A stretch of 32,810 nt of DNA from a virus, in the IMG/VR virus record IMGVR_UViG_3300030430_002820, positions 1 to 32,810 of that record. One strand, 5' to 3'. The notes beneath the pieces are model-generated. The model did not search any database, was not told the origin of the DNA, and was given only the letters and a program-made list of their open reading frames with translations. Made by a program: the position numbers and the translations under genes. Shown one piece after another: positions 6,866-23,290 of this stretch (the first letter of the stretch is position 1; every line of letters begins with the position of its first letter).

Positions 6866-6901
6866 ATTATAAATAACAAATAATATTTAATTTGTTTATA
6901 T

Positions 6902-6928: not shown

Positions 6929-6953
6929 CTTTTATACAAAGTAAATTTAATTA

Positions 6954-7526: not shown

Positions 7527-7541
7527 ATTATTATTATTATT

Positions 7542-7580: not shown

Positions 7581-7598
7581 ATTTATGTTAAACTATTA

Positions 7599-8501: not shown

Positions 8502-8526
8502 ATCTTTTTTCTTTTTTTATTTATTA

Positions 8527-8943: not shown

Positions 8944-8954
8944 AATTTTATTAT

Positions 8955-9482
8955 TTATTTATTATTGTTAATTAAAGTTTCCATTACTCTATCAAGAGTA
9001 GATTGTTTTCTATTATGAGCTAACTTAAATTTAGGCTCAAATACATCCTCTGAATTATGTTGAATTGGTTCTGCTGCAGGTTCTGCAGAGAGTTTTTCAA
9101 TTTCTTTTGACATAGAGACTTTATCATCATGATATTTAAGTTCCATATCTTCAATCATTTTTTTCATTGAAGCCATGTCTTTTTCATATTGTTCTCTAGT
9201 AACATATTTATCCATGTCAAGTTCAACATCTTCTTCGTCAGAAATAAGTTCAGATTCTTGTTCTTCAAGTTTAACTTCTTCAGCCGTAACTTCCACGTCC
9301 TCTGGTTTTACTTCTTCTAAATGTACTTCTTCGTTTACCGCTTCCTCAGTAAGTTTCAAAGACATTTCAGCTTCCTCCTGTAATTGTTCTTCAACAACTT
9401 CTTTAGAAAGCTCCTCTTTTTTAATTAAAGATAATTTTTCCATAATATCTTTTAATATCATTGTAGCTTTATTCTTTTCCAT
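8955..9482 (-). CDS. Capsid scaffolding protein
   Basis: A 175-residue protein that is extremely acidic in residues 25-100 (runs of E, D and V such as EEVKLEEQESELISDEEDVELD), then coiled-coil (MASMKKMIEDMELKYHDDKVSMSKEIEKL, about 105-132) with a basic C-terminal end (FKLAHNRKQSTLDRVMETLINNNK). This architecture, helical acidic body with a basic capsid-binding tail, is that of phage scaffolds, which nucleate procapsid assembly and are cut by the protease. It lies between the protease and the capsid genes, exactly where a scaffold is expected. Confidence 0.75.
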   Translation of the reverse strand: MEKNKATMILKDIMEKLSLIKKEELSKEVVEEQLQEEAEMSLKLTEEAVNEEVHLEEVKPEDVEVTAEEVKLEEQESELISDEEDVELDMDKYVTREQYEKDMASMKKMIEDMELKYHDDKVSMSKEIEKLSAEPAAEPIQHNSEDVFEPKFKLAHNRKQSTLDRVMETLINNNK

Positions 9483-9536
9483 AACTTAAGTTTAGATTTA
9501 TATATATGTAATAAATTGTAAATAAAGTGTTAGATT

Positions 9537-9674
9537 TTATATTTTACCAATACCCTGAGCTCTCAGAGTACCATCACAACACTTTATGGAATAAGATTTT
9601 CCATCTTTACAAAGACAACCTCTACGACTATTCTTAGGTACGTTTCTGCCTACAGTTTCTTTTGTCTTTTTCAT
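9537..9674 (-). CDS. Small cysteine-rich basic protein, 45 aa
   Basis: The ATG at 9674 overlaps the protease stop codon by ATGA, a strong sign of translational coupling, and the frame runs 46 codons to TAA. The product, MKKTKETVGRNVPKNS and then RRGCLCKDGKSYSIKCCDG, contains a CxC...CC arrangement of four cysteines within 17 residues and ends GTLRAQGIGKI. The C-x-C / C-C pattern suggests a zinc knuckle or disulphide mini-fold. Similar RRGCLC...CCDG...AQGIG proteins recur in Bacteroidetes phages, to my recollection, but I know no function. Its location inside the capsid module hints at a virion or assembly role. Confidence 0.75.
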   Translation of the reverse strand: MKKTKETVGRNVPKNSRRGCLCKDGKSYSIKCCDGTLRAQGIGKI

Positions 9675-11236
9675 TTTTTACTTTTAGGATGTTTAGCTGG
9701 CAACAAATCATAATCTGTTGTATATTTTGCATTTTGTGGCCTACCGTTTCTTACAAGATACATAAATGCGTTGACTCTCGCATGTGCCCATTGTGAGGGT
9801 GATTTAACATTAGGTGAATGGCTAGTATTAAATGCACCAAGTCCTCTTTGAAATACAGATGCTAACATACCTACCGTTATACCATAACCTAATTTTTCTT
9901 TATATCTTTTGTTAAAATCGTCAGCTTTTTTTTGCAAAGACGCTCTATCTTTTGCAGATACTTTAGCTCCACGTTTACCAGAAGCATCACCTTTTGCTGT
10001 TCCTTTACCTTTTGGATTTCTATTAGGTGTACCTGAAGCTGGTGCTTTAGGACTTTTTCTTATACCTCCTCTTGGGCCAACCTCTGCCATTTTTACACAC
10101 TTACCATTCATTCTTTTGAAACCACTTGGACATTTAGTGTGTTTATACATTTCATCTTTCTTATGAAACTCACAAGGCATATACCAAGTTTTACCTTCAA
10201 ACTCATGTTCATGAATACCTTCGCATCCAATATCCTTTGCCATCTTCTCAGCCATTTCTTTTGAAGCATAAGCAAGTCTGTCATCTAATATTGCATAATC
10301 TTTGTCAACCACCATTGATGCCATCTTAAGTTCACCAAGTTCTCTTAGTTTACCTCTCGACCAGTTTAACCCTGCTTTACCACCCCATAGTAAATATGAT
10401 ATAGTGCCACATGCTTTTGTGTCATTAGCATCATAATAAGTTTCTGCTCGACTTAAATATGAATACATGCGTTTAATCGTTGACAATGAGAGACTCGCAC
10501 CTCTGCTTAATTGCTGAGCTCTTACTTTTCCAACGCTTGTTGCACATTTATTATTTACTTTTTTATTTAGTTCAATACCTCTCTTTGCATTATTTCTAAC
10601 ACCACTACCATAATCACTATATGTTTTTAACTGATACTTATTGCCAAGTATTGAATTGGCAATCTCTAATAATATTTCTTCTGCTTCTTCCTCATCATTT
10701 GCTGAAGTTAAAGCACTCATATCTAATTTATCTGTAAAGTAACCTTCTATAGAAAAACCTTTAACTAAACCTGTTTTAACATATTCATTCCATACAGCAT
10801 CATTATTTACTTTCATAGTAACCATCCAAGTACCTTCAGGTAAATCAAATCCATACTTTTTAGATTTATCCATATTAGAATCTTCTATAATCCAAGATTC
10901 AACTACAGACAATCCATTTAATTGTGCTTGATGTTCTAGTGTAGATTTGTTTTGATTGCCTCTCATTAGAAATAATTGTGATGCTTGTCTTACTGTATCT
11001 TTTGAGAAGTATATAAAATAATCTTCTCCACCATTTGACCTAAATATATTTTTGTTAGGTATAAGAGCTGGGCCAACTAATATTCTTTTTTCATTGTCAA
11101 CTTCAGCTAATTTAACTTCTTCATTTTTTGATAATGCAATAAAGTTTTCTTCAATAGCTGGTTTATCAACTATAGATATAGCTTCTATACCAGACATTAA
11201 TTGTTCTTCGTCAATAAGTAGTTCTATAATTTTCAT
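9671..11236 (-). CDS. Prohead protease (XkdF-like) fused to extra domains
   Basis: A 521-residue multidomain protein. Residues 1-170 match the XkdF-like prohead protease/head morphogenesis pattern: DEEQLMSGIEAISIVDKPAI, then ILVGPALIPNKNIFR, ISTLEHQ-type KSTLEHQAQL with a candidate catalytic His, ESWIIEDSNMDKSKKYGFDLPEGTWMV and VKGFSIEGYF with the candidate Ser. Residues about 200-300 form a second helical domain (YGSGVRNNAKRGIELN ... KACGTISYLLWGGKAG). Residues about 385-521 form a third, opening GPRGGIRKSPKAPASG and ending LPAKHPKSKK; this resembles a domain of unknown function often attached to phage structural proteins (DUF5824/DUF5872-like). It would mature the procapsid and cut the scaffold. 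The fused domains about triple the usual protease length. Confidence 0.75.
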   Translation of the reverse strand: MKIIELLIDEEQLMSGIEAISIVDKPAIEENFIALSKNEEVKLAEVDNEKRILVGPALIPNKNIFRSNGGEDYFIYFSKDTVRQASQLFLMRGNQNKSTLEHQAQLNGLSVVESWIIEDSNMDKSKKYGFDLPEGTWMVTMKVNNDAVWNEYVKTGLVKGFSIEGYFTDKLDMSALTSANDEEEAEEILLEIANSILGNKYQLKTYSDYGSGVRNNAKRGIELNKKVNNKCATSVGKVRAQQLSRGASLSLSTIKRMYSYLSRAETYYDANDTKACGTISYLLWGGKAGLNWSRGKLRELGELKMASMVVDKDYAILDDRLAYASKEMAEKMAKDIGCEGIHEHEFEGKTWYMPCEFHKKDEMYKHTKCPSGFKRMNGKCVKMAEVGPRGGIRKSPKAPASGTPNRNPKGKGTAKGDASGKRGAKVSAKDRASLQKKADDFNKRYKEKLGYGITVGMLASVFQRGLGAFNTSHSPNVKSPSQWAHARVNAFMYLVRNGRPQNAKYTTDYDLLPAKHPKSKK

Positions 11237-11253
11237 ATTAGATTTATATATAA

Positions 11254-12858
11254 TTAATTTATACTTGCGTTATTTGTAATATTTCTGTCAAGCTCTTGTT
11301 GAGTAGTTACCTCTTTACCAACAACAAATGCTTGTATAGGTCTGCCAGTAACACCAGCTAATGATGTTGCTAGCTGTGATGTTTCACTTGCACCTACTAC
11401 ATTAAAGTCAGGTGCTTGGATAACAGTCTGTCCACCAGATTGAGAACCTTGTCCTCCTGCAGGTGTTTTGATTCTTCTTATCGCTGCAACTTGTGCTAAA
11501 CCTTGTACAACTGCTGCTGCTGCTGCAATAGCTGCCCTTACAGGTGCATCAACAACAGGTAAACTAAATTGACTTTCGTAAGCCTTTTGAGCTGCTGCAT
11601 AAGTTGATATTAAAGTACCAGCTATAGCAAGACCTTTACCGACACCTGTTTGTTCACCAGCTAATCTACCTAATCCAACCAAAGCATTACCTGTGTCATT
11701 ATAAGCTTGTATTTTAGAATCGGCCTCTATCTCGGCAAGTTTTATTTGGTCTTTACTTGCTTTTTTAATCATCTTTGTTTGTTCTGTAAGACCCTTATTT
11801 AAAACCGATAAACTTTTTACTGCTGAATCACCTGCACCATCAAGTGCATCTCTAGCAAATATTTGTAATTTTGATAGACCTTCAAACAAATCTCTATCAA
11901 GAACAATATCTTTTATGCCTTTAAAAGCTTTTACAACACCTATATCATCTCTATCTCCAAATTCACCTAAGGCTAAAAAGCTTTGTGTTAGATTATCAAT
12001 CTCTTGTTGTATTTCTGCTATTGCTTGTTGTCTTCTTTCTTTTGACTTTGCTATAGCATCAACTACAGCACTTTCAATACCTAATCCACTTTTTATAGCA
12101 ATCATTACTTTGTCAAAAAAGCCAATATTATCAATTAGTCTTTGGTTTTCTATTTCTATAAGTTCACCATACTTTTGCTGTATCAAAGACATTAAGGCTT
12201 GTGCTTGTGCTTTCTTTTTTAAAGCTGGAATGTAATCTTCTATAGCTTGTATTGAATCTTTTGTAAGTGTGCCTTCTTCATTTAGTTGTAAATTAAGTTC
12301 TTTATGTTCTCTGTTAAGTTCATCTAAGGCTGCCTGTTTTTCACCATAAGTTCTTGTAACATCGTTTAGAACTATACTTAATGTTTCTAGTCTGCCAATT
12401 TGCTCACCTGCAGCTTTTGCTGCATCTTCTTGTGCTTTTCTTAAATCTTTTACAGCTTGTGTTGTGCCTGTTAACATGTCAAGTAGTTTAGGCCCGAATG
12501 AAATTAAAAGTTGTACTAAGATTAAGAATCCACCTGTTCCAATTAAAGATTTACCTAATTGTTTAAAAGATTCAATAGCACTTCCATTTGTTTCTATAAA
12601 ACTAGATAATAATGTTACTACTTGTGATAAGTTGTTTGCGATTGCTGTAAAACCAAATGAAGCATCAGAAGCTAAACGTCCAGTTTCTAAAAGTATTGCG
12701 TTATTTAATCCTGATTGTGCTCTTGCTTTTTTTGTAGTTTCAACTACTTTCATTTGGGCATTCGATAAACCCTGTAATGATTTTTCTACTTTAGATACGG
12801 CAATATTTGCATCTTTAGCACCAACCTGTATTTGAATTAATATTTTCTTAGTTGCCAT
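11254..12858 (-). CDS. Tail tape measure protein
   Basis: A 534-residue protein, mostly alpha-helical, with coiled-coil stretches (residues 145-290 rich in A, E, K, Q, L) and a hydrophobic segment near 113-133 (GGFLILVQLLISFGPKLL). A second Ala/Gly-rich hydrophobic part (TGVGKGLAIAGTLISTYAAAQKA, then AAIAAAAAVVQGLAQVAAI) near 400-460 is typical of tape measure C-terminal regions. Tape measures set tail length at roughly 0.15 nm per residue, so a tail of about 80 nm would be expected. It is read from an ATG 11 nt inside the preceding 48-residue gene. Start chosen because MATKKILIQIQVGAKDANIAV gives the usual short N-terminal strand. Confidence 0.8.
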   Translation of the reverse strand: MATKKILIQIQVGAKDANIAVSKVEKSLQGLSNAQMKVVETTKKARAQSGLNNAILLETGRLASDASFGFTAIANNLSQVVTLLSSFIETNGSAIESFKQLGKSLIGTGGFLILVQLLISFGPKLLDMLTGTTQAVKDLRKAQEDAAKAAGEQIGRLETLSIVLNDVTRTYGEKQAALDELNREHKELNLQLNEEGTLTKDSIQAIEDYIPALKKKAQAQALMSLIQQKYGELIEIENQRLIDNIGFFDKVMIAIKSGLGIESAVVDAIAKSKERRQQAIAEIQQEIDNLTQSFLALGEFGDRDDIGVVKAFKGIKDIVLDRDLFEGLSKLQIFARDALDGAGDSAVKSLSVLNKGLTEQTKMIKKASKDQIKLAEIEADSKIQAYNDTGNALVGLGRLAGEQTGVGKGLAIAGTLISTYAAAQKAYESQFSLPVVDAPVRAAIAAAAAVVQGLAQVAAIRRIKTPAGGQGSQSGGQTVIQAPDFNVVGASETSQLATSLAGVTGRPIQAFVVGKEVTTQQELDRNITNNASIN

Positions 12859-12994
12859 ATCTTAATCTTTTTAGTTGCTGCTTCATTTCTTTATAATTAC
12901 TAACAGCTTTGTATTTACCTTTTGCTATTTCTATTATTTCATCTTCACCATACCAATCTGATGCGTTAAGTAAATCTATTATCTGTTTTATCAT
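12848..12994 (-). CDS. Small helical protein upstream of tape measure, 48 aa
   Basis: A 49-codon frame starting MIKQIIDLLNASDWYGEDE and ending QLKRLRYGN fills the gap between the 813-residue tail protein and the tape measure, with its last 11 nt overlapping the tape measure start. It starts 3 nt before the end of the upstream gene region (leader ATAATTATG). Predicted to be helical with an acidic first half and a basic second half. Unknown function; the slot immediately before the tape measure is often used by tail chaperones, but the chaperone here is clearly elsewhere. Confidence 0.7.
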   Translation of the reverse strand: MIKQIIDLLNASDWYGEDEIIEIAKGKYKAVSNYKEMKQQLKRLRYGN

Positions 12995-12996
12995 AA

Positions 12997-15438
12997 TTAT
13001 AGTTTGTTTAATAATTCTAAATTCGATACTTCAGTTTTAAAGTTTGTGCTTATAGAATTAATACGAAAGGTACGGTCTTGTATTACAAACTCGTCATTCA
13101 ATCTATAATTTGCTAATATATCAGTTGTTAAATAAGCTTTTAACTTAAATAATCTTCTTTTTTCATTGAATATGCCGTCAATATAAGTTTTATAAAACTT
13201 CTTAAATAATGAGTTGGTTGTGCCAAGATAATCTATCAAGTTCCATTCGTCTATTTCGTTATCAAAGTTTATTGTAAATGCAGGTGGTCTTATAATTACA
13301 AAAGCTTCGCTATTAGCCATAATGTCTAAACTAATTGTAAGTTGTGTATTACTATCAACTGCAGTAACTACAGCACTTGTATTGTCTGTTGTATTTAAAA
13401 CAATATCACCAACATTTACCGTAGCAACAAAGTTTTGACCTGATTGAATTAATTTATTAGTTGCAGCACTTGTAGTTGTACCTAAGTCTTCAGGATTACT
13501 TCTATTACTACCTCTTTCATTAGTATTGCTTGGTCTGTGATATTGTGTAATAGAAACAGGTGTTCCGTCTGAAATCCATTTGATACCTTTTGGTGAACTT
13601 AGTCCAGTTTCTTGTACACCATAAAAAATTAAAGGTGCTGGCAAAACTGGTTCATAGTTTCCTGTATTTGGTGTTACATCTGTATCTGATGTAAATTCAC
13701 CTGCAGCAGAGTAACCCCATTGAATATCTGTTACAAAAGCTTGTGGTTGTGTAACACCTGAGTATGGGCTACTTCCTGTTTCGTTATCGTCAAATAATCT
13801 TTCAAACTTCATGTGTTCAAAAGGAGCTTCTACGTCATAAACTGTTCCTCTATCTATATTTTGTGGCCTTACTTCTTCATTACCAAATACCTCGTTAAAT
13901 TGTTCTAAATGATTTATAGATAAAAGTGTTTTAGGTTCTTGATATTTAAAATCTATCTCACTAAATTCAAAAGCTCTATCTATCTGTGTATTTGAAGTGT
14001 CAACATATTTTGTAATATCATATTCACCTCCTGATGGATTATTAACTCTATCTGCATAAAAATTGTCCAATGTATCTACAAATATTTTGCCAAAGTCAGC
14101 ATCGCCAACGTCATCTATGAAAAATGCTGTAAGGTTAAACATTTTAAATAAACCACTTAAAAAATCTATAGTTTTTATTTTTGGTGTGTTCTGTGTTATT
14201 ATAATCTCACTTACAGTTGATATAGCTGCGGCTGAACCATTAATATTATATACAGCGTTTATCTCAGATGTTGGATTGCCCGTCAAAGGGTCAAGAATAA
14301 GTTCTGTTAGTTCTATGCTAGGTGTAAAAGATATTGCTGTCTCTGATTCAATAATCCATTTGACTTGAAAGTTTACAGCATTAAAAGATGAAGGTATCTC
14401 AAATGTTAGTGCTCTTACTGAACCAGATTCATTAGAGCTTTGTGCTAAGGTTGTACCACTTACATAATCAATAGCTTTCATTGTAAAAGGTATGCTTTGG
14501 TTTGCACCTGCTGTAGTTACAGTTAGAACACCTCTAAAACTATTTGTATGATTTTGTACAGTAAATCCCCAACTATCTCCACTTACGTTAAAGTGTGGGA
14601 CTGTACCAGAAGAATAACCCCAGTTTCCACATATTCGACTTAATATTTCATCTTGGTTAACATCTCCTCCTATAGGGCCTTTGTTTCTACATAACCATAA
14701 ATATAAATTAGAAAACTCTGTATTGTTAAAAAAGTCTCTAGTAAATACAACATTACTCGGATAACCGTTTGCGATTGTATATTTATTTTCTATAGCTTCG
14801 ATAATAGTCAAACATTTTATCGCTGGCTTTAAATCATCAAACGCTAGTCCAATATTGTTTTGTGTTGTATTATAATATAAGTTTCCACTATATTGTGGTG
14901 ATGATTCGGCAGAATCATAATAAAATCTTTTTGTATGAGATATAAGTGGATATATAATTTTACTTGATGATAAACCACTTTGTAAACCTGTCTTTACATT
15001 TGAGCTAGAATAATCATGTGTAAAATTATCGAGCTGAGGTAAATCAGATAATTCGTCATCGCCAAGTAAATCTTTTAGATTTATAGTATTGCCATAAAAA
15101 ACTAAAGTATATGCAAAAGGTTTATTGTCTTTTAACTTAACGTTTTCCAAAGATATTTTACCTCGTTTGAAAGGATTGAAGTCAAGTTCCATGATTGCAT
15201 CTTTTCTAGTTCTAGCATCAAAGTTGTTTTCTATTTCATATCTATACCAATGTTCAAATATTTTGTTATTGTCTCTTGATGCAGGAACTGTAAAGCTTTG
15301 ACTAAAATCCATAAATACTTTACCTATATCTCTTACATCTTGTATCTTGGATGTTAAGCTTATAGTTTCGTCATCAAACATATCTACTCTTTGATAATCT
15401 TTATCAGAGTTTTTTATGTATAAAACTACTTTCTGCAT
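12997..15438 (-). CDS. Large tail/baseplate-like structural protein, 813 aa
   Basis: The N-terminus MQKVVLYIKNSDKDYQRVDMFDDETISLTSKIQDVRD resembles a family of large tail proteins of Bacteroidetes phages that probably form the distal tail or tail-tip hub. Residues 50-130 (FTVPASRDNNKIFEHWY) are the family-specific start; the rest is a mosaic of beta-rich domains. Residues about 651-720 form a module also present in the next gene upstream (see 15438-16796). Overlaps that gene by one base (TAATG). The C-terminal end (RLNDEFVIQDRTFRINSISTNFKTEVSNLELLNKL) looks like a compact beta domain. Virion tail role is likely; the exact position in the tail is inferred. Confidence 0.65.
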   Translation of the reverse strand: MQKVVLYIKNSDKDYQRVDMFDDETISLTSKIQDVRDIGKVFMDFSQSFTVPASRDNNKIFEHWYRYEIENNFDARTRKDAIMELDFNPFKRGKISLENVKLKDNKPFAYTLVFYGNTINLKDLLGDDELSDLPQLDNFTHDYSSSNVKTGLQSGLSSSKIIYPLISHTKRFYYDSAESSPQYSGNLYYNTTQNNIGLAFDDLKPAIKCLTIIEAIENKYTIANGYPSNVVFTRDFFNNTEFSNLYLWLCRNKGPIGGDVNQDEILSRICGNWGYSSGTVPHFNVSGDSWGFTVQNHTNSFRGVLTVTTAGANQSIPFTMKAIDYVSGTTLAQSSNESGSVRALTFEIPSSFNAVNFQVKWIIESETAISFTPSIELTELILDPLTGNPTSEINAVYNINGSAAAISTVSEIIITQNTPKIKTIDFLSGLFKMFNLTAFFIDDVGDADFGKIFVDTLDNFYADRVNNPSGGEYDITKYVDTSNTQIDRAFEFSEIDFKYQEPKTLLSINHLEQFNEVFGNEEVRPQNIDRGTVYDVEAPFEHMKFERLFDDNETGSSPYSGVTQPQAFVTDIQWGYSAAGEFTSDTDVTPNTGNYEPVLPAPLIFYGVQETGLSSPKGIKWISDGTPVSITQYHRPSNTNERGSNRSNPEDLGTTTSAATNKLIQSGQNFVATVNVGDIVLNTTDNTSAVVTAVDSNTQLTISLDIMANSEAFVIIRPPAFTINFDNEIDEWNLIDYLGTTNSLFKKFYKTYIDGIFNEKRRLFKLKAYLTTDILANYRLNDEFVIQDRTFRINSISTNFKTEVSNLELLNKL

Positions 15439-16796
15439 TATAAAATATTATTTATTTTATCAAAGGCGTAATCGAATTGAACAGTATAGTTTATAAGTTT
15501 ATCATTTACAGACTTTTTAAATCTAAGTGTGTTCGATTTTAAGTTAACAGGTAATACTGTTGTTATGTCGTCAACCCATACTTGTTCAGCTAACATTTTT
15601 TGTTTTACTATTTCATTGTATGATTCTGGATAGTAACCAGTATTAACAGTAATACTTTCTTTACCATTAGCCATAAATTTCTTTTCTTGATGTTTAGATA
15701 AAGCATAAGAAGGTGTGCCACCAGAATTTTCTAAATCTAATATATTGTTCTTATACTTTTCACTTCTTATATTAATTTCTTTGAATGACTTTTTGAAATA
15801 CCATATATTTTGTAGTGCACCAAATTTATTATAGAATATTAAATTAAGTGGACTGTATTTACATTCTTCTACTTTTTTCAATGTAATTACTGTATCGGTA
15901 AATCCAGATACAGATGTATCAAAAGTAACTATATCACCATCATTTAGTAACTGTGTGTCTTCAATTATTATATATTGTATTTTTTGATTTGTGTTACCGT
16001 TGTCAGCAATTTGTATAGGTGTTTGTCCTGAACCCCATGTACTGTCGTTAGTTTCCCAAAAGTCATTTGCTGCTTCCCAGTTTATATTTGAACCTGCTAA
16101 ACTTGTCAATGTTACAAGTGGCAACGCTTCAGCAAATACAGGTATTTTTATATCTTGTCCATCAAAATAATAAACATCTGTATTATTCTGTAAAACCATT
16201 GGTGTTGTTGTTGTTCTTGGATTAACACCATCTTCAAAGTAACCATAACCATCAATACCTAAAAAAGTATTAACAACTGTATTTTGGCCACCTACTTGAA
16301 CAATATTGCCTGCTGAATTAAATATTGTTACATCAGCATCAATCCATATAGTATCTGTTGCATAGTTGTTATATTCAGTAATCATATAATCTCTTGCAAG
16401 CTCACTTAGTTCAAATACAACATAGGGCATGGCATATATAATATAGTTTTCTCCATTAGCCATAATGTCTGCATCAAGAGTCAAAGTTGTGTCACTATCT
16501 ATCGCAGTTACTGAAGCTGTAGTATTATCTGTTGTGTTTTTTACAAAACTACCAACTTGTACTGTAGATGTAAAATTTTGTGTGCTATCAACTAATTTAT
16601 TTGATGTAGTTGCAGAAGTAGTACCTCTATCAAGTTCATCAAGCTTTTGTTCTTTTTGAATTGTATATCTTAAATAAGCATTAGTTCTTGAATTGTGTAA
16701 ACCTGTAAATATATACAATTGTAATTTAACAGAATTCAAATCTGCGTTTTTTACTTTCAAATAGAAAGGACTTCTTGTGTTTATAATTGTTGACAT
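15438..16796 (-). CDS. Tail structural protein with inserted repeat module, 452 aa
   Basis: A beta-rich protein starting MSTIINTRSPFYLKVKNADL, followed at residues 57-121 by a module rich in T, D and V (TSNKLVDSTQNF ... VGSFVKNTTDNTTASVTAIDSDTTLTL ... IMANGENYIIYAMP). The same module, with about half its residues identical, occurs in the adjacent 813-residue protein. The remainder (residues 125-452) has no recognised motif; it contains a long Thr/Asn-rich beta section and a C-terminal segment FKKSVNDKLINYTVQFDYAFDKINNIL. Encoded between the HK97-gp10-like protein and the large tail protein; TAATG overlap with the latter. Probably a tail fibre or baseplate partner of it. Confidence 0.6.
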   Translation of the reverse strand: MSTIINTRSPFYLKVKNADLNSVKLQLYIFTGLHNSRTNAYLRYTIQKEQKLDELDRGTTSATTSNKLVDSTQNFTSTVQVGSFVKNTTDNTTASVTAIDSDTTLTLDADIMANGENYIIYAMPYVVFELSELARDYMITEYNNYATDTIWIDADVTIFNSAGNIVQVGGQNTVVNTFLGIDGYGYFEDGVNPRTTTTPMVLQNNTDVYYFDGQDIKIPVFAEALPLVTLTSLAGSNINWEAANDFWETNDSTWGSGQTPIQIADNGNTNQKIQYIIIEDTQLLNDGDIVTFDTSVSGFTDTVITLKKVEECKYSPLNLIFYNKFGALQNIWYFKKSFKEINIRSEKYKNNILDLENSGGTPSYALSKHQEKKFMANGKESITVNTGYYPESYNEIVKQKMLAEQVWVDDITTVLPVNLKSNTLRFKKSVNDKLINYTVQFDYAFDKINNIL

Positions 16797-16797
16797 G

Positions 16798-17346
16798 TTA
16801 TTTCTCTATCTTTTTAAATGTTTCACCAGTTTTACCATAACCTAGCATAATCATAAACTCATCAATATTTTTACTTATATCGTCAATAATATTTGGTGTT
16901 ACGTCAATTATACTATCTACTTGTTGATTTACTAATTCAGTTAAAAAAGGAACTGGCTTGATGCCTTCTCTATTTATTTTTTGTGCAATCAAATTAGCAA
17001 CTCTATTTTTATCTTTTATAGAATCAAGAGTTACAGGTTTTCTGTTTATCCAACTTACAATATCATTTACTCTTACGTTTGTACCAGCTTTAGTTCCCTC
17101 ATCAATCTTTTCACCATAATCTTTACCTGTTATATTAAATTGAAAAAAATCACCACCTCTTACAATTTTAGTACTTAGTTGTAAACTATCTTTTAATTGT
17201 CCACTTGATTTTAGAGCACTTTGTATCGTTCTGCCAGATTTATACGTTCTAGTAAAAGGCTTGTCTATTCTAGCCTTTGCAAGTCTAATTAGTTTATTTG
17301 AATAATTAGTTAGAAAGGATTCTGTATTTTTTAATTTAAAACTCAT
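16798..17346 (-). CDS. HK97 gp10-like neck/tail completion protein
   Basis: A 182-residue protein with the hallmarks of the HK97-gp10 family: an N-terminal helix (SFLTNYSNKLIRLAKARID), a strand pair, then YGEKIDEGTKAG near residues 90-101, corresponding to the conserved YxxxxExGT loop, and a C-terminal helix ending in PVPFLTELVNQQVDSII. Such proteins sit at the head-tail interface. I start at the ATG at 17346 because it overlaps the upstream stop codon as TAATG; a TTG two codons upstream is possible but less likely. The gene ends 1 nt before the next start. Confidence 0.7.
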   Translation of the reverse strand: MSFKLKNTESFLTNYSNKLIRLAKARIDKPFTRTYKSGRTIQSALKSSGQLKDSLQLSTKIVRGGDFFQFNITGKDYGEKIDEGTKAGTNVRVNDIVSWINRKPVTLDSIKDKNRVANLIAQKINREGIKPVPFLTELVNQQVDSIIDVTPNIIDDISKNIDEFMIMLGYGKTGETFKKIEK

Positions 17347-17837
17347 TAGCAAGCACTTTGTCCATTTGAATTAATATCTGATATTTGATTGTTTGGCACA
17401 ATTACATCTAGTGTTAAAGACCAACCTGTAAGTAAATTTTCAAATCTGTCCTCAAACATCTGTGCTTCAAAATCTGTATCTATTTGAAATAAATCGCTAT
17501 ACAGTTCACCACGCCTAAGAGCACTCTGCAATCCATTGACAACAAAAAACATTGTATTTAAAATATCTTGTTTGTTATTTATATCATGAAAATAATTATT
17601 CTGTTCTTTTAAGTCTTCATTAGTTTCTGATACAACATCCATACATATTACTTGCATATTGAAACGAACAACATGCTCTTGAAAAGTACAACTGTTTACT
17701 ACTATGTGGGCTAATGGAAATATAGTTTGCTTTGATAAGTCAACTTCAAATATATCTCCAAATGTAACTGAATTAATATTACTGTTGCCTTGTAGATATG
17801 TTTTTAATTTATCTAGTATATCGTAAAATGTTGTCAT
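17346..17837 (-). CDS. Tail terminator-like protein, 163 aa
   Basis: A 163-residue protein, MTTFYDILDKLKTYLQGNSNINSVTFGDIFEVD..., with the helix-strand plan seen in tail terminator/completion proteins of siphoviruses. The start ATG overlaps the stop codon of the frameshifted tail chaperone (ATGA), placing it in the tail module. It has five cysteines (CTFQEH, VICMDV, QSAC) and a hydrophobic strand FPLAHIVVNS. Role inferred from order (next to the gp10-like protein and the tail chaperone) and size; direct motif support is weak. Confidence 0.5.
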   Translation of the reverse strand: MTTFYDILDKLKTYLQGNSNINSVTFGDIFEVDLSKQTIFPLAHIVVNSCTFQEHVVRFNMQVICMDVVSETNEDLKEQNNYFHDINNKQDILNTMFFVVNGLQSALRRGELYSDLFQIDTDFEAQMFEDRFENLLTGWSLTLDVIVPNNQISDINSNGQSAC

Positions 17838-18615
17838 CCTTTATAAGCTCTTTTTATTTCGTCTTGTTCTATTTGGTTCTTCTCTTTCTCAAATGATAAA
17901 TAATTTAAACATTCGAATAATGATAGTTTGGTAACTTTGTCAAATCTGAGGACATCTCCTTTAGCGAGTGCATAAACTGATTGATACCAGCCCCATTTTT
18001 TGCCAAATGATTCTCTAGCGTTTGCAAATCCTGTTTCGTCAGATTCTGTTCCATATATCTCGGTATAGCTTGAAGTAACGCTTTCCCTAAATTGTAAAAA
18101 AAAAGCATACCACTTAATGCTACATTCATTGGCATCCCTTTCATAATCTCTTGTATTTCTTCTTTGCCTTCGTATGGTGCTATAGTATATTTATCACCTA
18201 ACTTAAAATTAACTGGCCTATACATAACACTCATTACTTTGTGCATGTTTTGCCAATCATTAATATTAGTTTCTATGTCAATATATTCTCCTAAAGATAT
18301 ATCGTCAAGTTTTGGTATGAAGCCCATGTCAACACCTTCTAATTTAAATCTTCTTATTAGTTTTGGTTTTTCAGCAAATGCTTTGTCTAGTATTTCTAAT
18401 ACCTTGTTAAAACCTCTTACAGAAATCTTATCTACTTCTGCAAGGCTTATGTTGCAAAATATTTCAACGAGCTTCATATTTAAAAAGTTTGTTAGCTCAT
18501 CAGTTTGTTCTGCGTCCTTATGAGCATCCATGACTTTCATATACTTTTGGTACTGCTCAAGTGTTATATCATTTAACGTTTGAGGTACTTCTAATTCTAT
18601 AAATTTCTTAGCCAT
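17834..18615 (-). CDS. Tail assembly chaperone, long form by programmed -1 frameshift (gpGT-like)
   Basis: After residue 207 of the short form (codon AAT of GCA AAA AAT) the -1 frame is open for 53 codons to a TGA at 17834-17836, which overlaps the next ATG. The extension begins WGWYQSVYALAKGDVLRFDK and continues KLSLFECLNYLSFEKEKNQ, a natural, non-random domain that has no start codon of its own. The predicted long form has 260 residues. The site, A AAA AAT, is a canonical X XXY YYZ slippery heptamer. This is the arrangement of lambda gpG/gpGT: a small fraction of ribosomes make the T-domain fusion that recruits tail tube subunits to the tape measure. The extension fills the 67-bp space that would otherwise be an unexplained gap. 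Confidence 0.85.
17905..18615 (-). CDS. Tail assembly chaperone, short form (gpG-like)
   Basis: A 236-residue protein starting MAKKFIELEVPQTLNDITLEQYQKYMKVM. This beginning is common among tail assembly chaperone-type proteins in Bacteroidetes phages. It is highly helical, with the central stretch VMYRPVNFKLGDKYTIAP near residues 130-150. The zero-frame end, GAGINQFMHSLKEMSSDLTKLPNYHYSNV, is the part replaced after the frameshift. Such proteins keep the tape measure soluble during tail assembly and are absent from the mature virion. It is the first gene of the structural operon and lies downstream of a cluster of dyad sites at 18703-18749. Confidence 0.75.
   Translation of the reverse strand: MAKKFIELEVPQTLNDITLEQYQKYMKVMDAHKDAEQTDELTNFLNMKLVEIFCNISLAEVDKISVRGFNKVLEILDKAFAEKPKLIRRFKLEGVDMGFIPKLDDISLGEYIDIETNINDWQNMHKVMSVMYRPVNFKLGDKYTIAPYEGKEEIQEIMKGMPMNVALSGMLFFYNLGKALLQAIPRYMEQNLTKQDLQTLENHLAKNGAGINQFMHSLKEMSSDLTKLPNYHYSNV
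17995..18001 (-). promoter_or_regulatory. -1 ribosomal slippery heptamer A AAA AAT
   Basis: Minus-strand sequence GGC A AAA AAT GGGG. Zero-frame codons are GCA, AAA, AAT; slippage gives AAA and AAA in the -1 frame followed by TGG. G-rich sequence directly downstream (GGGGCTGG) could slow the ribosome; I see no obvious strong stem. Confidence 0.85.
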
Positions 18616-18702
18616 ATTATAATTAATAATTATTGTTTATATTGTATCTAACTTATCCCACCTGCTTATATGTCAGATTAATAGTATTATATATATTTAG
18701 TA

Positions 18703-18749
18703 TTACACCATGTAATATATTACACTATGTATTATATTACACTATGTAA
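18703..18749. promoter_or_regulatory. Cluster of three dyad (operator-like) sites, 17-bp spacing
   Basis: Three copies of a 13-bp imperfect or perfect palindrome TTACA-CTA-TGTAA start at 18703 (TTACACCATGTAA), 18720 (TTACACTATGTAT) and 18737 (TTACACTATGTAA), exactly 17 bp apart. The cluster is 90 to 130 bp upstream of the tail chaperone start and sits beside an alternating AT stretch. The same dyad recurs at 28856-28915. The rest of the 166-bp gap at 18616-18781 is AT-rich with no TAnnTTTG promoter that I could find. Confidence 0.7.
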
Positions 18750-18781
18750 TATATATATAATATATATATACTGACTATATG

Positions 18782-18982
18782 TCATTTGGAATATTTTCTA
18801 TAATAGTATAGATAGATTTCATATACCTTATCACTCCAATCTTTACGGCCATAAGTCTTAGGACTTCTAATTATATTACCATTGTTATTGACTTCAACAA
18901 AGTATTGATTAGCGTCTCTTGGCACAGCGTAAACCTTTATGCCATTTTTTATACACCAAGATATTGCATCGTACTTTTCCAT
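18782..18982 (-). CDS. Small hypothetical phage protein, 66 aa
   Basis: A 66-residue protein (MEKYDAISWCIKNGIKVYAVP ... GRKDWSDKVYEIYLYYYRKYSK). The pattern, a helix, a strand pair ending NIIRSPKTYGRKDW and a basic aromatic C-terminus, resembles small proteins common in flavobacterial phages, sometimes as stand-alone genes near the terminase. No enzyme motif. It stands alone between the dyad cluster and the non-coding GGCC region and may have its own promoter; none is clear. An in-frame upstream extension reads QYLAQFNS before the ATG, echoing QEVYLKQFNT in the gene at 21260-21421, but a stop codon precedes it. Confidence 0.65.
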   Translation of the reverse strand: MEKYDAISWCIKNGIKVYAVPRDANQYFVEVNNNGNIIRSPKTYGRKDWSDKVYEIYLYYYRKYSK

Positions 18983-19386
18983 ACTATTGAATTGCGCAAG
19001 GTATTGAATTTATTGATAACTGCAAACTGTCAGGTGCAAAGTATTGTATGTATAGAGAGTTGAGTAATATCCAATATAGTTGGCCGTTTGCACAGACACC
19101 CTATATTTAAGGCCATATAAGGCTATTTATATTATTTATGGGCCAATACCATTAAACTGAATTAATAGGCCGTTAAATTGAATGTAATAGGCCTTAAAAT
19201 TGATGTTTCTTTGTTTTTATAGGCCGTAAAATAAAAAAAACCCATTTAATTAATCTTTTTCAACTGATTATCAACAATTTAAATTTTTTAAGCCATGATT
19301 ATAAAATTAATAAAAGGCCATATAAGATTAATAAAAATTAATTAATTATGCATCATAACTTTTATTATGTTAAATTATGTAGACAT
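18983..19386. other. Non-coding AT-rich region with spaced GGCC sites, candidate origin
   Basis: About 400 bp without a supported gene. GGCC occurs at 19082, 19111, 19141, 19168, 19190, 19222 and 19316, most 22-32 bp apart (about 2-3 helical turns), typically in the context TAGGCC or AAGGCC. Outside this region GGCC occurs only about 20 times in 32 kb. A DnaA-box-like TTATCAACA lies at 19268-19276 (one mismatch from TTATCCACA). The right part (19300-19380) is almost pure AT. Repeated short sites, a DnaA-like box and an AT-rich tract fit a replication origin, but the primase-helicase gene lies 8 kb away and no initiator protein is identified. Confidence 0.4.
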
Positions 19387-19410
19387 AAAAAAAAGGGCCG
19401 AAGCCCTTTG
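19387..19410 (-). terminator. Rho-independent terminator after 97-aa gene
   Basis: Minus-strand RNA: AAAGGGC-TTCG-GCCCTTT stem with a stable UUCG tetraloop, followed by U8. It lies 7 nt after the stop of the 97-residue gene and ends the small-gene operon that begins near 20768. Confidence 0.95.
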
Positions 19411-19416
19411 CAGTAT

Positions 19417-19710
19417 TTAGATTTTATTTAACCGTGCTAGTTTATAAACCCCTGTTTGAATATCTCTCTCAATTTCTTTCTTGCTTTTATCTGTGCCGAG
19501 AAATGATTTTAAATATTTCAAGGTAGTTCTTGAATAATCCCAATAATTTTTGTCAAGTATTGTCTTGCCTAAAAATCCCCTTTGTTTCTTTGCTATGATT
19601 GTTGAATAGCTTTGAAAATATATATATTTGTCTGTATATATCTCAAATTGATTTGCGACAGGGTTTCCTGTCCTCGTTGAGTTCATTTGAACCACTTGTA
19701 TTGTTTTCAT
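19417..19710 (-). CDS. Hypothetical phage protein, 97 aa
   Basis: Begins MKTIQVVQMNSTRTGNPVANQFEIYTDKYIYFQSYSTIIA. The combination NQFEIxTxxxxxFQSYxxxIA followed by YWDYSRTTLKYLKSFLG is one I have seen in small conserved proteins of Bacteroidetes and other phages (a DUF8033-like pattern). Function unknown. It is the last gene of its operon and is followed at once by a UUCG terminator. The start context ...AATATGAAAAC matches that of four other genes in this operon. Confidence 0.7.
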   Translation of the reverse strand: MKTIQVVQMNSTRTGNPVANQFEIYTDKYIYFQSYSTIIAKKQRGFLGKTILDKNYWDYSRTTLKYLKSFLGTDKSKKEIERDIQTGVYKLARLNKI

Positions 19711-19725
19711 ATTGTTTTAATTTAT

Positions 19726-19968
19726 TTAAGATTTTTTTGATTTAATCCATTTTACTAAAATTTCTCTTGCTTCAAGTTTTCCCAACCCAAATTCTTCTTG
19801 TATAAATATACCAGCACCAAACATGTTTGTGATGCCCGATTCTCTTAAGTTTTCTAAGTATTCAAATATTTCTTTTTCCATTTTTATTTTATTTTTTAAT
19901 TGTTTTATTTTTCTTAATTGTTTTCTTTTATTTGCATAATGCAAAATGTTTTTTTCTATTCTATGCAT
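19726..19968 (-). CDS. Small phage protein, 80 aa (core is last 51 residues)
   Basis: The C-terminal 51 residues (MEKEIFEYLENLRESGITNMFG ... EARE ILVKWIKSKK) match a widespread small phage protein pattern: a helix, the motif SGxTNMFGA, then EEFxLxxxEAREIL and W. The first 29 residues are lysine-rich and may not be translated. Two starts are therefore possible: the ATG at 19968, which overlaps the upstream gene by 8 nt, or the ATG at 19881 in an A-rich leader. I give the longer one for its overlap but think the shorter is about as likely. Function unknown. Confidence 0.7.
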   Translation of the reverse strand: MHRIEKNILHYANKRKQLRKIKQLKNKIKMEKEIFEYLENLRESGITNMFGAGIFIQEEFGLGKLEAREILVKWIKSKKS

Positions 19969-20452
19969 CTTGTTTAAATTCTGGATTAGGTTTATTAGCG
20001 TTCTTGCCTTCAGTTAAAACTTGTTGCATTATTTTGTCAACAAGTCTTGTGTATAAAAGCTCATTTTCTTCACTAAACAATGAAGGGCTACTATAATGGT
20101 TATAACTCGTTAAAAAATGTACCAACTTTGTAACCTCATTTTCAGCATTTGAATAGTTATATAAAAAGTCAATCATTCTCTGATAATAATCAGTAATATA
20201 TACGTCCTCCTCATAAATGCCATTGCTGTCAAAAATAACCTCTTGAACGTTACAATTTCCATTATTAAAGTAGTCATAATTTAATCTTGAAACTACTCTT
20301 ATAAGTTCACCCTGTATTGTAGGAGCGTCTCCACAATCGGGGACTAATATTTTATAAAGTTCATTATATTCAGTTTGATAAATGCCTTCATCATTCCAAT
20401 AAGTTTTACCTTTTGGTGTAAATTTTTCGTATGTGATTTGTTTTGTTTTCAT
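19961..20452 (-). CDS. Hypothetical acidic phage protein, 163 aa
   Basis: A 163-residue protein starting MKTKQITYEKFTPKGKTYWNDEGIYQ. It has the striking stretch VPDCGDAPTIQGELIRVVSRLNYDYFNNGNCN near residues 38-69, with two Cys-containing loops and a GELIR helix, then a helical C-terminal half. I cannot assign it to a named family. Preceded by the common AATATGAAAAC start context and followed by an 8-nt overlap with the next gene. Composition is typical of the phage. Confidence 0.65.
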   Translation of the reverse strand: MKTKQITYEKFTPKGKTYWNDEGIYQTEYNELYKILVPDCGDAPTIQGELIRVVSRLNYDYFNNGNCNVQEVIFDSNGIYEEDVYITDYYQRMIDFLYNYSNAENEVTKLVHFLTSYNHYSSPSLFSEENELLYTRLVDKIMQQVLTEGKNANKPNPEFKQDA

Positions 20453-20458
20453 ATTATA

Positions 20459-20575
20459 TTAATTTATTTCGATTGATAAAAAGATAGTAAAAATGAAAGC
20501 CATCAAATAAACAAATAGCTTTATAAATCTATCGTGTAAAATAATTTTTTCTAATAGTGTTTTTATTGTTTTCAT
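20459..20575 (-). CDS. Small predicted membrane protein, 38 aa
   Basis: A 39-codon frame in a region otherwise empty. The product (MKTIKTLLEKIILHDR, then FIKLFVYLMAFIFTIFLSIEIN) has one clear transmembrane segment at about residues 17-34 and a basic N-terminus. The start is the AAATATGAAAAC context shared with the neighbouring 55-residue gene; the two starts sit in an identical 19-nt stretch. Could be a small host-membrane effector; nothing more can be said. Confidence 0.6.
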   Translation of the reverse strand: MKTIKTLLEKIILHDRFIKLFVYLMAFIFTIFLSIEIN

Positions 20576-20577
20576 AT

Positions 20578-20745
20578 TTATTGTTTGTTAATATAGGTTT
20601 TAAGTGATAAAAGGAATTCGTTAAATTCTAAATCCTTTTTTAATTTTTGGCAAAAAGAATTATTTTTTTTATTTGGATAATAATAATTAATTAATTCAAT
20701 TTGTCTTTTAAGGTTTTTACATTTGTTTAGTAAATCTGTTTTCAT
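20578..20745 (-). CDS. Small helical protein, 55 aa
   Basis: A 56-codon frame, MKTDLLNKCKNLKRQIELINYYYPNKKNN..., helical and basic, no recognised motif. It stops 2 nt before the start of the membrane peptide gene. It is the first gene after the well-formed promoter at 20768-20799, which supports its being expressed. Confidence 0.65.
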   Translation of the reverse strand: MKTDLLNKCKNLKRQIELINYYYPNKKNNSFCQKLKKDLEFNEFLLSLKTYINKQ

Positions 20746-20767
20746 ATTTATTGTTTTTAATTATACC

Positions 20768-20799
20768 CAAATATAAAATATATTTTCCAACTGACAAAA
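20768..20799 (-). promoter_or_regulatory. Bacteroidetes-type promoter for the small-gene operon
   Basis: On the minus strand TTTTG (20799-20795), a 19-nt spacer and TATATTTG (20775-20768) match the -33/-7 consensus of the Bacteroidetes housekeeping sigma factor (TTTG...TAnnTTTG). The first gene downstream starts at 20745. The spacer includes GTCAGTTGGA, a string that also appears upstream of the gene at 22024. Confidence 0.75.
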
Positions 20800-20821
20800 T
20801 AAATATTATTTTTTTTTTATA

Positions 20822-20829
20822 TATCTTTG
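20822..20829 (+). promoter_or_regulatory. Possible plus-strand promoter -7 element
   Basis: TATCTTTG, followed by C, is an exact TAnnTTTG on the plus strand, the only such site I noticed in a non-coding position facing right. No good -33 TTTG lies about 19 nt upstream. If used, it would make an RNA that runs through the hairpin at 20864-20899 and the pseudoknot element at 20926-20987. Confidence 0.3.
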
Positions 20830-20854
20830 CAAAAATCCAAAACCAGATACGGCC

Positions 20855-20899
20855 AAAAAAAAACCCCCTATTAAATTTATGTATTAAATTCACAGGGGG
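20855..20899 (-). terminator. Terminator hairpin with U9 tract
   Basis: Minus-strand RNA: CCCCCT...AGGGGG closing stem around an AT-rich loop that can itself pair (AATTTAATAC/TAAATTTAAT), followed by nine U. It ends transcripts coming from the gene at 21263. The stem is symmetric, so it also folds in a plus-strand transcript but lacks a U tract there. Confidence 0.85.
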
Positions 20900-20925
20900 A
20901 ATAAAAACAACTCACATAAATATTT

Positions 20926-20987
20926 TAGAGGTGTGTAGCACGGAGAATAGCTACACTAAAGATACTTTTTCCGTTGAGCAACCTCTA
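20926..20987. ncRNA. Candidate structured RNA with pseudoknot
   Basis: Three exactly complementary pairs can form together: closing stem TAGAGGT (20926-20932) with ACCTCTA (20981-20987); hairpin GTGTAGC (20933-20939) with GCTACAC (20950-20956); and ACGGA in its loop (20940-20944) with TCCGT (20970-20974), an H-type pseudoknot. Both strands could fold this way. On the minus strand it is the 3'-UTR of the 92-residue gene (it even includes that stop codon) ahead of a terminator; on the plus strand it is followed by ATTTTTCTTT and preceded by a -7-like element at 20822. I do not recognise a named RNA family. Confidence 0.4.
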
Positions 20988-21263
20988 TTTTTCTTTACTG
21001 ACCATTGGTTTAAATTTAAATCCATCTTCTTGAATATTGATTTGAATTTCTGCACCATTTGGACAACACGGAATTTCCATGTCTAAGTCATAACAAGTTT
21101 TGTCGTGTGGATTCCAAATAAACAATCTACTTTGTGCCATGTTTATTAGATGCATAAAATCTTCGTTTGATAATGTATTATACAATTCACAAAGGGCTTC
21201 ATGTCTTGTTTTGCCCTCAAACCTTATTTTGTCAATTACGTTTTTACTTTCTTTTGTTTTCAT
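20985..21263 (-). CDS. Hypothetical protein, 92 aa
   Basis: A 92-residue protein starting MKTKESKNVIDKIRFEGKTRHEALCEL. The N-terminal half is helical (HEALCELYNTLSNEDFMHLINMAQSRLF); the C-terminal half is strand-like with a CC pair in MEIPCCPNGAEIQINIQ. No family recognised. Its ATG overlaps the previous stop (ATGA), so it is the last of the six-gene coupled chain running from 22024. It is followed by the pseudoknot-capable element and a terminator. Confidence 0.65.
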   Translation of the reverse strand: MKTKESKNVIDKIRFEGKTRHEALCELYNTLSNEDFMHLINMAQSRLFIWNPHDKTCYDLDMEIPCCPNGAEIQINIQEDGFKFKPMVSKEK

Positions 21264-21421
21264 ATTAAATTCATATATATTATTTCTCTGTTTCTGCTAT
21301 ATTGTTTTATAGTCCAATCAACACTTCTATCAGTATTGAATTGCTTAAGGTAAACTTCTTGATTGCGTTCCTTTATCGCAAAAATATAAGTATTCTTATG
21401 CTTTTTGCTTTCTGTACTCAT
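21260..21421 (-). CDS. Small hypothetical protein, 53 aa
   Basis: A 54-codon frame (MSTESKKHKNTYIFAIKERN ... VDWTIKQYSRNREIIYMNLI) that overlaps the previous gene by 26 nt and the next by ATGA. It contains QEVYLKQFNT followed by WTIKQYSR, which resembles the region around the start of the gene at 18782-18982 at both DNA and protein level. Possibly a distant duplicate. Function unknown. Confidence 0.6.
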   Translation of the reverse strand: MSTESKKHKNTYIFAIKERNQEVYLKQFNTDRSVDWTIKQYSRNREIIYMNLI

Positions 21422-21566
21422 CTTCTAAATGTTTATGATAAACTTCTATTTTAGCTTCTAAAGATGCTATCTTATCCTCGTATTCAGCATTTTTAGTTGT
21501 GGCATTATTTAATAATTGCCTAAGATGATTAATTTCTATTCTGTATAAATCTGCTTGTCCTGTCAT
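21396..21566 (-). CDS. Small coiled-coil protein, 56 aa
   Basis: A 57-codon frame, MTGQADLYRIEINHLRQLLN followed by AEYEDKIASLEAKIEVYHKHLEDE, with a clear heptad pattern of I/L residues across about 45 residues. It overlaps the upstream gene by ATGA. Likely a dimeric coiled coil; role unknown. Confidence 0.65.
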   Translation of the reverse strand: MTGQADLYRIEINHLRQLLNNATTKNAEYEDKIASLEAKIEVYHKHLEDEYRKQKA

Positions 21567-21733
21567 TTATTTTTAATTATTATTTTATCTTGTAAAAAAC
21601 TTATTGTGTCCATTATAAACATTTCTTTTTGTCTGTGATTATCCATTTCCTGTGGAACACATATCCAATAGTTCGTTGTCTTTGGAGTTAAGAACTTTTT
21701 TATCATTTCCCCTATTTGTCTCATTGGTCTCAT
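21563..21733 (-). CDS. Small hypothetical protein, 56 aa
   Basis: A 57-codon frame, MRPMRQIGEMIKKFLTPKTT followed by NYWICVPQEMDNHRQKEMFI. It begins 5 nt after the previous stop codon and ends in an ATGA overlap. No motif recognised, but the codon order and tight coupling favour a real gene. Confidence 0.6.
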   Translation of the reverse strand: MRPMRQIGEMIKKFLTPKTTNYWICVPQEMDNHRQKEMFIMDTISFLQDKIIIKNK

Positions 21734-21737
21734 AATT

Positions 21738-21902
21738 TTATTCGTTTATTAATTTATAAATTATATCACAAGACATGGTTACGTCTTTAAATAAAGTTTC
21801 TTTATTTTCTTGAGACATTCTATTTTCTTTTTGTATTTTTTTAATATTATATTTAATATCAGATATGTAATACATAATTAAATTATACGTTGTTTTTTTC
21901 AT
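21738..21902 (-). CDS. Small hypothetical protein, 54 aa
   Basis: A 55-codon frame, MKKTTYNLIMYYISDIKYNI then KKIQKENRMSQENKETLFKD, with an aromatic N-terminal helix. Starts in an ATGA overlap with the preceding 41-residue gene. No recognisable family. Confidence 0.6.
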   Translation of the reverse strand: MKKTTYNLIMYYISDIKYNIKKIQKENRMSQENKETLFKDVTMSCDIIYKLINE

Positions 21903-22024
21903 TTCTTCTTTGTTTTATTGTTTATTAATTCTATGTTTTTTTTCATTATCCAATCAAAATCAGAACTATGAAAGTATCTGTTCTTGTCGTAATGTTCTAT
22001 TGTTTTCTTAATTTGTTTCTTCAT
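21899..22024 (-). CDS. Small basic protein, 41 aa
   Basis: A 42-codon frame, MKKQIKKTIEHYDKNRYFHS then DFDWIMKKNIELINNKTKKK, with a highly basic composition. First gene of the ATGA-linked chain that runs to 20985. It starts 51 nt after the terminase stop, in a gap containing TTTATTTGGATATGTCAGTTGGA, a weak match to the Bacteroidetes promoter. Confidence 0.55.
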   Translation of the reverse strand: MKKQIKKTIEHYDKNRYFHSSDFDWIMKKNIELINNKTKKK

Positions 22025-22075
22025 AACACTTACAATATTAAGCATTCCAACTGACATATCCAAATAAAAAATATA

Positions 22076-23290
22076 TTATTTTACAAAATAACTTCCGTGT
22101 GGTACAGAACGAGTCAGCAAATATTGAATTGCATATCTGGAAGCGTCGATGCCATGATTGAATTTATCAATAGGAATTGCACCTGTTAGTTTCCATGAAT
22201 AGTTATTGAACTCTCGTATTAAATTTACACTATCACTATCAATTATAATATTGTAGTCTTGCATCAAACTTATTCCTGTTAGTATGCTACCTTTTCTTTT
22301 TATTGTAGGTACAATATTCAAACCTTTGGATTTACATTCAGATATTAAACGTGGCTCAGAATTATCACATACTATTAAATTCTTACCCATGTATCGAATT
22401 GACAAATCAAATATTTGTGTTGTAGTCAAACCTTTTTTATAAAAGTGTTCTCTAATCCAAATTAATTTCCTTACTTTGTCAATGGCAACTTCACATAAGC
22501 AACTCTCGTCAACAGAGAATCCTATATCTAATCCACCTATTGAATCTATTTGGGTATTGAATTTACCTATATTCCAATGAGTAAATATTACACCCTCTGC
22601 TCTTTTGAGCCAACCACCCATTATCTGATGCTGATATTTCTCTGGCCTTCTTATCTTCATGTCTTCGATTTGTTTTACAAAAGATTGTGATAAGTGTTTT
22701 AGATTGTCTAAGTATGTTGTATGGATATATGTTATATTATTCTTACTTCCATTATAACCATCTGGAATACCTCTATTCTGAAAAAACCTTTGATATATCC
22801 AATTCTCTTTTGTAGTAGGGTTTAGAATTAATATACATCTGTTAGTAACATTCTTTGCTCTGATACTAAAATCAATTTTATCAAAGCTTTCCTCATCAGT
22901 TAACTCCTCTGCTTCATCAAGTACAAATGTAGATACACCCTGTATAGATTTTAGTTTTGCCGTTTGGTCTCCACTACTTGTTCTTATACCACTAAAGTAT
23001 ATTGAACTGCCTGTTAAATTATTTATGATTTCTGTTTTAGTTATTGTGAATTGTTCGCCAATACCCATGAGCTCAATCTTCTCTATGAACTCTGGTATAA
23101 TTGACATGCCTGCTGAAGTCATTGTGAATCTAGTAAACAATATTCTGTGTCCAGATTCGTATGTTAATAATACTAAAAATGTATTTACGGCAAAAGATTT
23201 CCCACTTCCACGTCCACCTGTTATTACAAAGTATCTATCTTTTGAATTGAATAAGGTTTGGTATTTATTGTTTAGATTGAGGTTTTTCAT
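22076..23290 (-). CDS. terL: Terminase large subunit
   Basis: A 404-residue packaging motor of the PBSX/Terminase_3 type. Walker A is GGRGSGKS at residues 25-32 and Walker B with the catalytic Glu is VLDEAEE at 123-129. The C-terminal RNase H-like nuclease shows GLDIGFSVD near 255, VCDNSEPR near 305 and HGIDASRY at 379-386, the three acidic positions that bind metal. It cuts the concatemer and pumps DNA through the portal using ATP. Length is normal. The start overlaps the small terminase gene by 26 nt, indicating coupling. Confidence 0.93.
   Translation of the reverse strand: MKNLNLNNKYQTLFNSKDRYFVITGGRGSGKSFAVNTFLVLLTYESGHRILFTRFTMTSAGMSIIPEFIEKIELMGIGEQFTITKTEIINNLTGSSIYFSGIRTSSGDQTAKLKSIQGVSTFVLDEAEELTDEESFDKIDFSIRAKNVTNRCILILNPTTKENWIYQRFFQNRGIPDGYNGSKNNITYIHTTYLDNLKHLSQSFVKQIEDMKIRRPEKYQHQIMGGWLKRAEGVIFTHWNIGKFNTQIDSIGGLDIGFSVDESCLCEVAIDKVRKLIWIREHFYKKGLTTTQIFDLSIRYMGKNLIVCDNSEPRLISECKSKGLNIVPTIKRKGSILTGISLMQDYNIIIDSDSVNLIREFNNYSWKLTGAIPIDKFNHGIDASRYAIQYLLTRSVPHGSYFVK

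Follow-up and report, generated by a model that had tools for sequence, protein, structure and literature searches.

A conserved run of at least nine T's marks a -1 frame transition, probably made by transcriptional slippage, in a tail-module gene of flavobacterial phages

The window, by which we mean the whole stretch of viral DNA analysed (32,810 nucleotides), carries on its minus strand an open reading frame of 236 codons (17905..18615), which would give the unshifted form of the protein considered here and which is conserved in all relatives. Its first 173 codons (18097..18615), homologous to phrog_32199 (unknown function), would be common to two products and lead into a run of nine T's (18096..18104, minus strand) with the reading CTT TTT TTT TAC, inside which lies an in-frame T TTT TTT (18103-18097). 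Beyond the run two frames are open on the same strand. The 0 frame continues for a tail of 63 codons (17905..18095), and the -1 frame for an extension of 87 codons (17837..18097, LQFRESVTSSYTEIYG...FGKKWGWYQSVYALAKGDV...AYKG) up to a TGA (17834..17836) that overlaps the ATG of the next gene as ATGA. That gene, g163 (17346..17837, minus strand, 163 aa), has similarity to phrog_30964 (unknown function) and possibly encodes a tail-completion or neck type protein.

The order of genes is terL, the T-run gene, g163, g184, g452, g813, the probable tape measure gene, protease, major capsid, g190, g111 and portal, and it was found to be kept in the window, in the cultured Nonlabens phage P12024L and, over the stretches compared, in two further relatives (L163 and L166). 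The block occupies 4795-23290 of the window, running as in P12024L from the terminase through the tail module with its tape measure, the protease, the capsid and g190, a probable tail tube gene, to the portal, which comes last. A 534-aa protein (11254..12858, minus strand) is the probable tape measure protein, as it has C-terminal homology to P12024L_50, a coiled, hydrophobic protein of 687 aa. A T10 run was seen in the window at 7542-7551 (minus strand), in noncoding DNA between the capsid gene and g190, where it may serve as a terminator U-tract or form a spacer of variable length. On the same strand a long, repetitive, tail-fibre-like stretch (1-4690) appears to read through to the window end and is probably truncated.

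In a preliminary description of this gene, made from the letters of the window, a -1 ribosomal frameshift was placed at GCA AAA AAT, so that N207 would be joined to WGWYQSVYALAK. The 236-codon minus-strand gene (18615-17905) and the in-frame A AAA AAT (17995..18001, minus strand, read from 18001 to 17995) are present as described, the latter 102 nt downstream of T TTT TTT, and so is the TGA (17836-17834) overlapping the ATG at 17837. The 53 open -1 codons counted after A AAA AAT were also correct as a count, but not as the length of the extension, which from the T run has 87 codons. The -1 frame in the window is in fact open for 118 codons, from 18190 to the TGA at 17836-17834, and when ATG, GTG and TTG were sought in that frame from 18190 to the stop, none was found, in agreement with the claim that the extension lacks its own start codon. 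The 67-nt gap between the annotated ORFs, which it had been proposed to explain, is likewise there and is accounted for by the -1 extension.

To collect relatives, the -1 part and the 0-frame part were each used as queries; several of the searches relied solely on 0-frame patterns that lie before the run and thus introduced no bias toward any site. They comprise viral contigs, the cultured Nonlabens phages P12024L and P12024S, contigs of bacterial MAGs, and prophages, one of them in Flagellimonas onchidii. Among 796 genomes from the phylum and family of the Flagellimonas host a few prophages were found, all with a T9 run. The related loci numbered 611, with 473 distinct sequences, and in all but one of them (610 of 611) both parts stood in a 0/-1 arrangement: of the 544 loci in which profile models recognised both parts, 543 had the -1 arrangement, as did all 67 loci of the out-of-sample final set. 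Alignment of the -1 extension in relatives, which had been suggested as a check, was thus carried out and showed the -1 frame to be open and conserved at the 610 loci, confirming both the -1 frameshift as such and the view that the extension is a real domain. The one exception (L468, 2480-3298) is the only relative with both parts in one frame; it keeps the run, as T10, and has the sequence that a transcript with one added U would give. It may be a real variant, in which the default between short and long form has naturally been flipped, or an assembly indel.

Two other contigs drew our attention in the course of the searches. In one (JAHZJZ010000222.1, L168) a phage contig of the clade was binned with an epsilonproteobacterial MAG, and it is probably mis-binned, or else the clade has a wider host range. 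In the other (IMGVR_UViG_3300046167_000393) the gene occurs at both ends of a single 38-kb contig (L114/L115), which suggests a terminally redundant or circular genome.

Since homopolymers are prone to error, it might be argued that the split gene reflects sequencing or assembly error, or a decayed gene. This is the least probable of the explanations considered and can be all but dismissed, because the same frame and a run of T9-T12 recur in 473 distinct sequences, cultured phages and prophages included, and because both frames are under purifying selection. It might also be argued that the -1 part is translated independently, as a gene in its own right whose start is reached by internal initiation or by coupling, and it is indeed annotated as a separate ORF in the Nonlabens phages: P12024L_40/41 (JQ823123.1, L161:3564-4258) and P12024S_38/39 (L162) are each given as two separate hypothetical proteins. 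P12024L_40 and P12024S_38, like phrog_32199, are homologues of the shared N-terminal part. However, the conserved -1 domain has already run for about 90 nt where the second ORF is annotated to start, so that a joined CDS is needed in both phages; an ATG, GTG or TTG is absent from the -1 frame of the window and from around the opening of that frame in 135 of 238 relatives; and initiation does not predict a T run. An internal start was rejected for the want of in-frame starts in the window and in most relatives, and a separate gene is accordingly very improbable.

On the evidence of the sequences the -1 fusion, and its start at the T run, are clear. Homology of the -1 part begins at the run (query residues 1 to 4 in the loci returned by two of the searches), and directly after it the -1 frame has the invariant residues F4, F5, L6 and F8 (FF-L-F) and a nearly invariant Y16. 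Upstream of the run the -1 register had a pN/pS of 1.9, and 33 of 238 relatives have a -1 frame that becomes open no more than 3-9 nt ahead of T TTT TTT. A ribosomal shift at A AAA AAT (18001), the mechanism first proposed, would have a perfect heptamer followed by 53 open -1 codons, but when representatives were chosen by 80% nucleotide clustering, the heptamer was present in 17 of 155 and missing in 138, and over the roughly 100 nt that precede it the -1 frame was already conserved and subject to purifying selection. A AAA AAT was therefore rejected as a conserved transition site, and a shift there is hardly credible; the transition lies at the T run instead. The fusion product would have 260 residues whether the shift took place at the T run or at A AAA AAT, so that a size test cannot separate the two, although the fusions differ at residues 174-207, the 34 residues between the sites. 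The junction peptide predicted for a shift at the T run is GMPMNVALSGMLFFLQFR, and ESVTSSYTEIYGTESDETGFANAR is a peptide from -1 codons that precede A AAA AAT.

The sequences also carry the mark of purifying selection in both frames after the run. Over the first 33 codons pN/pS was 0.61 in the -1 frame and 0.56 in the 0 frame, as against 1.4 in the +1 frame. The 0 frame stays open for a median of 60 codons, compared with 17 in simulations given the -1 protein and codon usage, and this openness was beyond chance (P<0.05) in 81% of 150 representatives; in the window it was 62 codons against 22 expected (P 0.005). Within the overlap the -1 frame uses TTA for 17% of its leucine codons, compared with 60% after the overlap, and its synonymous rate is 0.19, compared with 0.33. 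Since the 0 frame is open past chance and the synonymous rate is lower in the overlap, the two C-termini are dual-coded. The +1 frame, which transcripts with U8 or U11 would enter, is closed within six codons in 155 of 155 representatives, largely because the leucine codon TTA is shared with the other frames. In an AF2 model of the 0-frame protein, pLDDT was about 90 over most of residues 10-172 and fell right after the run, and because of this drop the 0-frame tail may be flexible, or it may need partners in order to fold. The -1 domain modelled alone gave a low-confidence structure (pLDDT 62, pTM 0.34).

Among the 473 distinct sequences, the final 50 of which formed an out-of-sample set, the run was T9 in 415, T10 in 53, T11 in three and T12 in two, and none was shorter; elsewhere in coding sequence T9 occurred twice in 571 kb. 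The run starts in all three codon phases (0, 1 and 2). Its usual form is xTT TTT TTT Txx, and in four lineages in which the first codon is AGT, GCT, GAT or GGT it is extended 3' to TTG. Such a 3' extension was seen in all four lineages without the 5' T as compared with 12 of 151 others that have a T there (p about 8e-5), and variants with TTT TTT TTT CTG keep nine T's despite the lost 3' T. Nine T's thus remain where the flanking residues have changed. The last base of T TTT TTT is synonymous as T or C in both frames when a leucine codon follows in the -1 frame; this doubly synonymous base was T in 134 of 134 representatives, whereas matched controls in the overlap had C in 81 of 189 (43%), and at 70% clustering the figures were T in 36 of 36 and C in 16 of 48 controls (33%). 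The idea that T9 arises from hydrophobic residues alone was rejected, since the first position also takes codons for S, A, D and G, and since only T is found at the doubly synonymous site.

The agent of the shift was considered next to these constraints. A ribosomal slippery heptamer is a matter of seven bases in one phase, while in polymerase slippage it is length that matters and phase is irrelevant. The floor of nine, the freedom of phase and the compensated flanks hence favour transcriptional slippage, and we regard programmed slippage at the T run as probably the best explanation of the -1 fusion. Efficient in vivo slippage by bacterial RNA polymerase has been reported for stretches of 9 A or T, and productive slippage at a 9-T run for Thermus dnaX (Atkins review, PMC5009743). 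The alternative is a -1 ribosomal frameshift at U UUU UUU within the run, in which tRNA-Phe in the P and A sites would slip back by one base and yield the same fusion. As every run of nine T's holds an in-phase T TTT TTT, which was found in all relatives examined, a ribosomal shift could take place at every site, and tail chaperone genes of other phages are known to use -1 ribosomal shifts, often without stimulators (PMC5009743), the P2 record NC_001895 annotating a -1 translational frameshift in E+E'. Furthermore, orthologues that use ribosomal frameshifting have been found to share a constant direction of shift, which orthologues that use slippage do not always do (PMC3711429), and the direction is constant here, which counts against slippage, though it could instead reflect a required product ratio or the dual-coded overlap. 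Nonetheless, seven T's would suffice for the ribosome, leaving the floor of nine, the compensated flanks and the shifting phase unexplained, and in E. coli U UUU UUU reportedly shifts much less readily than A AAA AAG (PMC5009743). Downstream RNA structure, sought against shuffles in nine sequences, was ordinary (z -1.2 to +1.2), and a pseudoknot or stem beyond the run was dropped as a candidate. Ribosomal shifting alone seems to us unlikely, if much less so than the other alternatives; slippage is preferred over it, and both may contribute. A search of the literature for slippage in phage tail genes returned only the general review and a genome survey.

According to the model that we propose, a single tail-module gene would give rise to two proteins with 173 residues in common. 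In most transcripts T9 would be copied faithfully, leading to the 236-residue protein with its 63-residue tail. In a fraction of transcripts RNA polymerase would slip at the run on the weak rU:dA hybrid, and those with one extra U (U10) would be read into the -1 frame to yield a 260-residue protein carrying an 87-residue, mostly helical WGWY domain, while in U8 or U11 transcripts a stop would be met after a few codons. Short and long protein would thereby be made in a fixed ratio, like gpG and gpGT, and the likely use of this is in tail assembly, where the short form, the long form or both may coat the tape measure protein and recruit tail subunits. We infer both the polymerase as the agent and the short to long ratio from the DNA.

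Two-product tail genes are a textbook case of conserved ribosomal frameshifting in phages. The present findings make it somewhat likely that, across a large clade of flavobacterial phages, the ratio of two tail-assembly proteins is governed by polymerase slippage at nine or more T's, and not ribosomally, the two C-termini overlapping by about 190 nt. If so, a fixed ratio of two forms would be reached at another step of gene expression, and it would depend on the host polymerase and on nucleotide pools. A T9 run in this gene offers a simple annotation rule, by which gene calls can be corrected in P12024L, P12024S and many metagenomic phages, and the gene is a natural test bed for telling transcriptional from ribosomal slippage.

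A role as a gpG/gpGT-like tail assembly chaperone is plausible by analogy, from the position of the gene and its design. The frame-change fusion, with a predicted short and a predicted long form, is conserved, and the gene appears to open the tail module, in which it would be the sole two-form chaperone candidate. It is not the immediate upstream neighbour of the tape measure gene, following the major tail protein, but lies five genes before the probable tape measure gene. Searches of Pfam, PHROGs, PDB sequences and Foldseek for the identity of the protein returned only unnamed viral relatives, with no match in the PDB by sequence or fold. Weak signals were a Pfam match of one member to Phage_TAC_7 (E 0.12), a Foldseek match named 'tail assembly chaperone' (E 0.29, prob 0.77) and a weak fold match to Flavobacterium phage 6H, which held no useful annotation. 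Comparison with lambda G/T, P2 E and HK97 gp13 by hhalign gave no similarity, so that the lambda gpG/gpGT design, to which the preliminary description had assigned the gene, holds as an analogy only.

As in Thermus dnaX, a homopolymer of at least nine is conserved at the transition and no structure is needed; here, in contrast, the gene belongs to a phage structural module and the fusion by the proposed slippage would require one extra U. Like lambda gpG/gpGT, P2 E/E+E' and HK97 gp13, the T-run gene would have two products with a shared N-terminus and a -1 change and is found in a tail module, whereas it has a T9 run instead of a heptamer, no detected sequence similarity to these chaperones, and a place five genes before the tape measure gene where theirs is directly before it. 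The unshifted product has a 63-residue dual-coded tail that is absent from gpG. With phrog_32199 and P12024L_40/P12024S_38 it shares homology over the N-terminal part, the -1 part being annotated there as a separate hypothetical protein. In P2 gene E the -1 ribosomal site is T TTT TTG. Thus P2 gene E, as the gene described here, has a T-rich -1 site in a tail chaperone gene, but its site is a heptamer only, unlike the T run with its homopolymer floor of nine.
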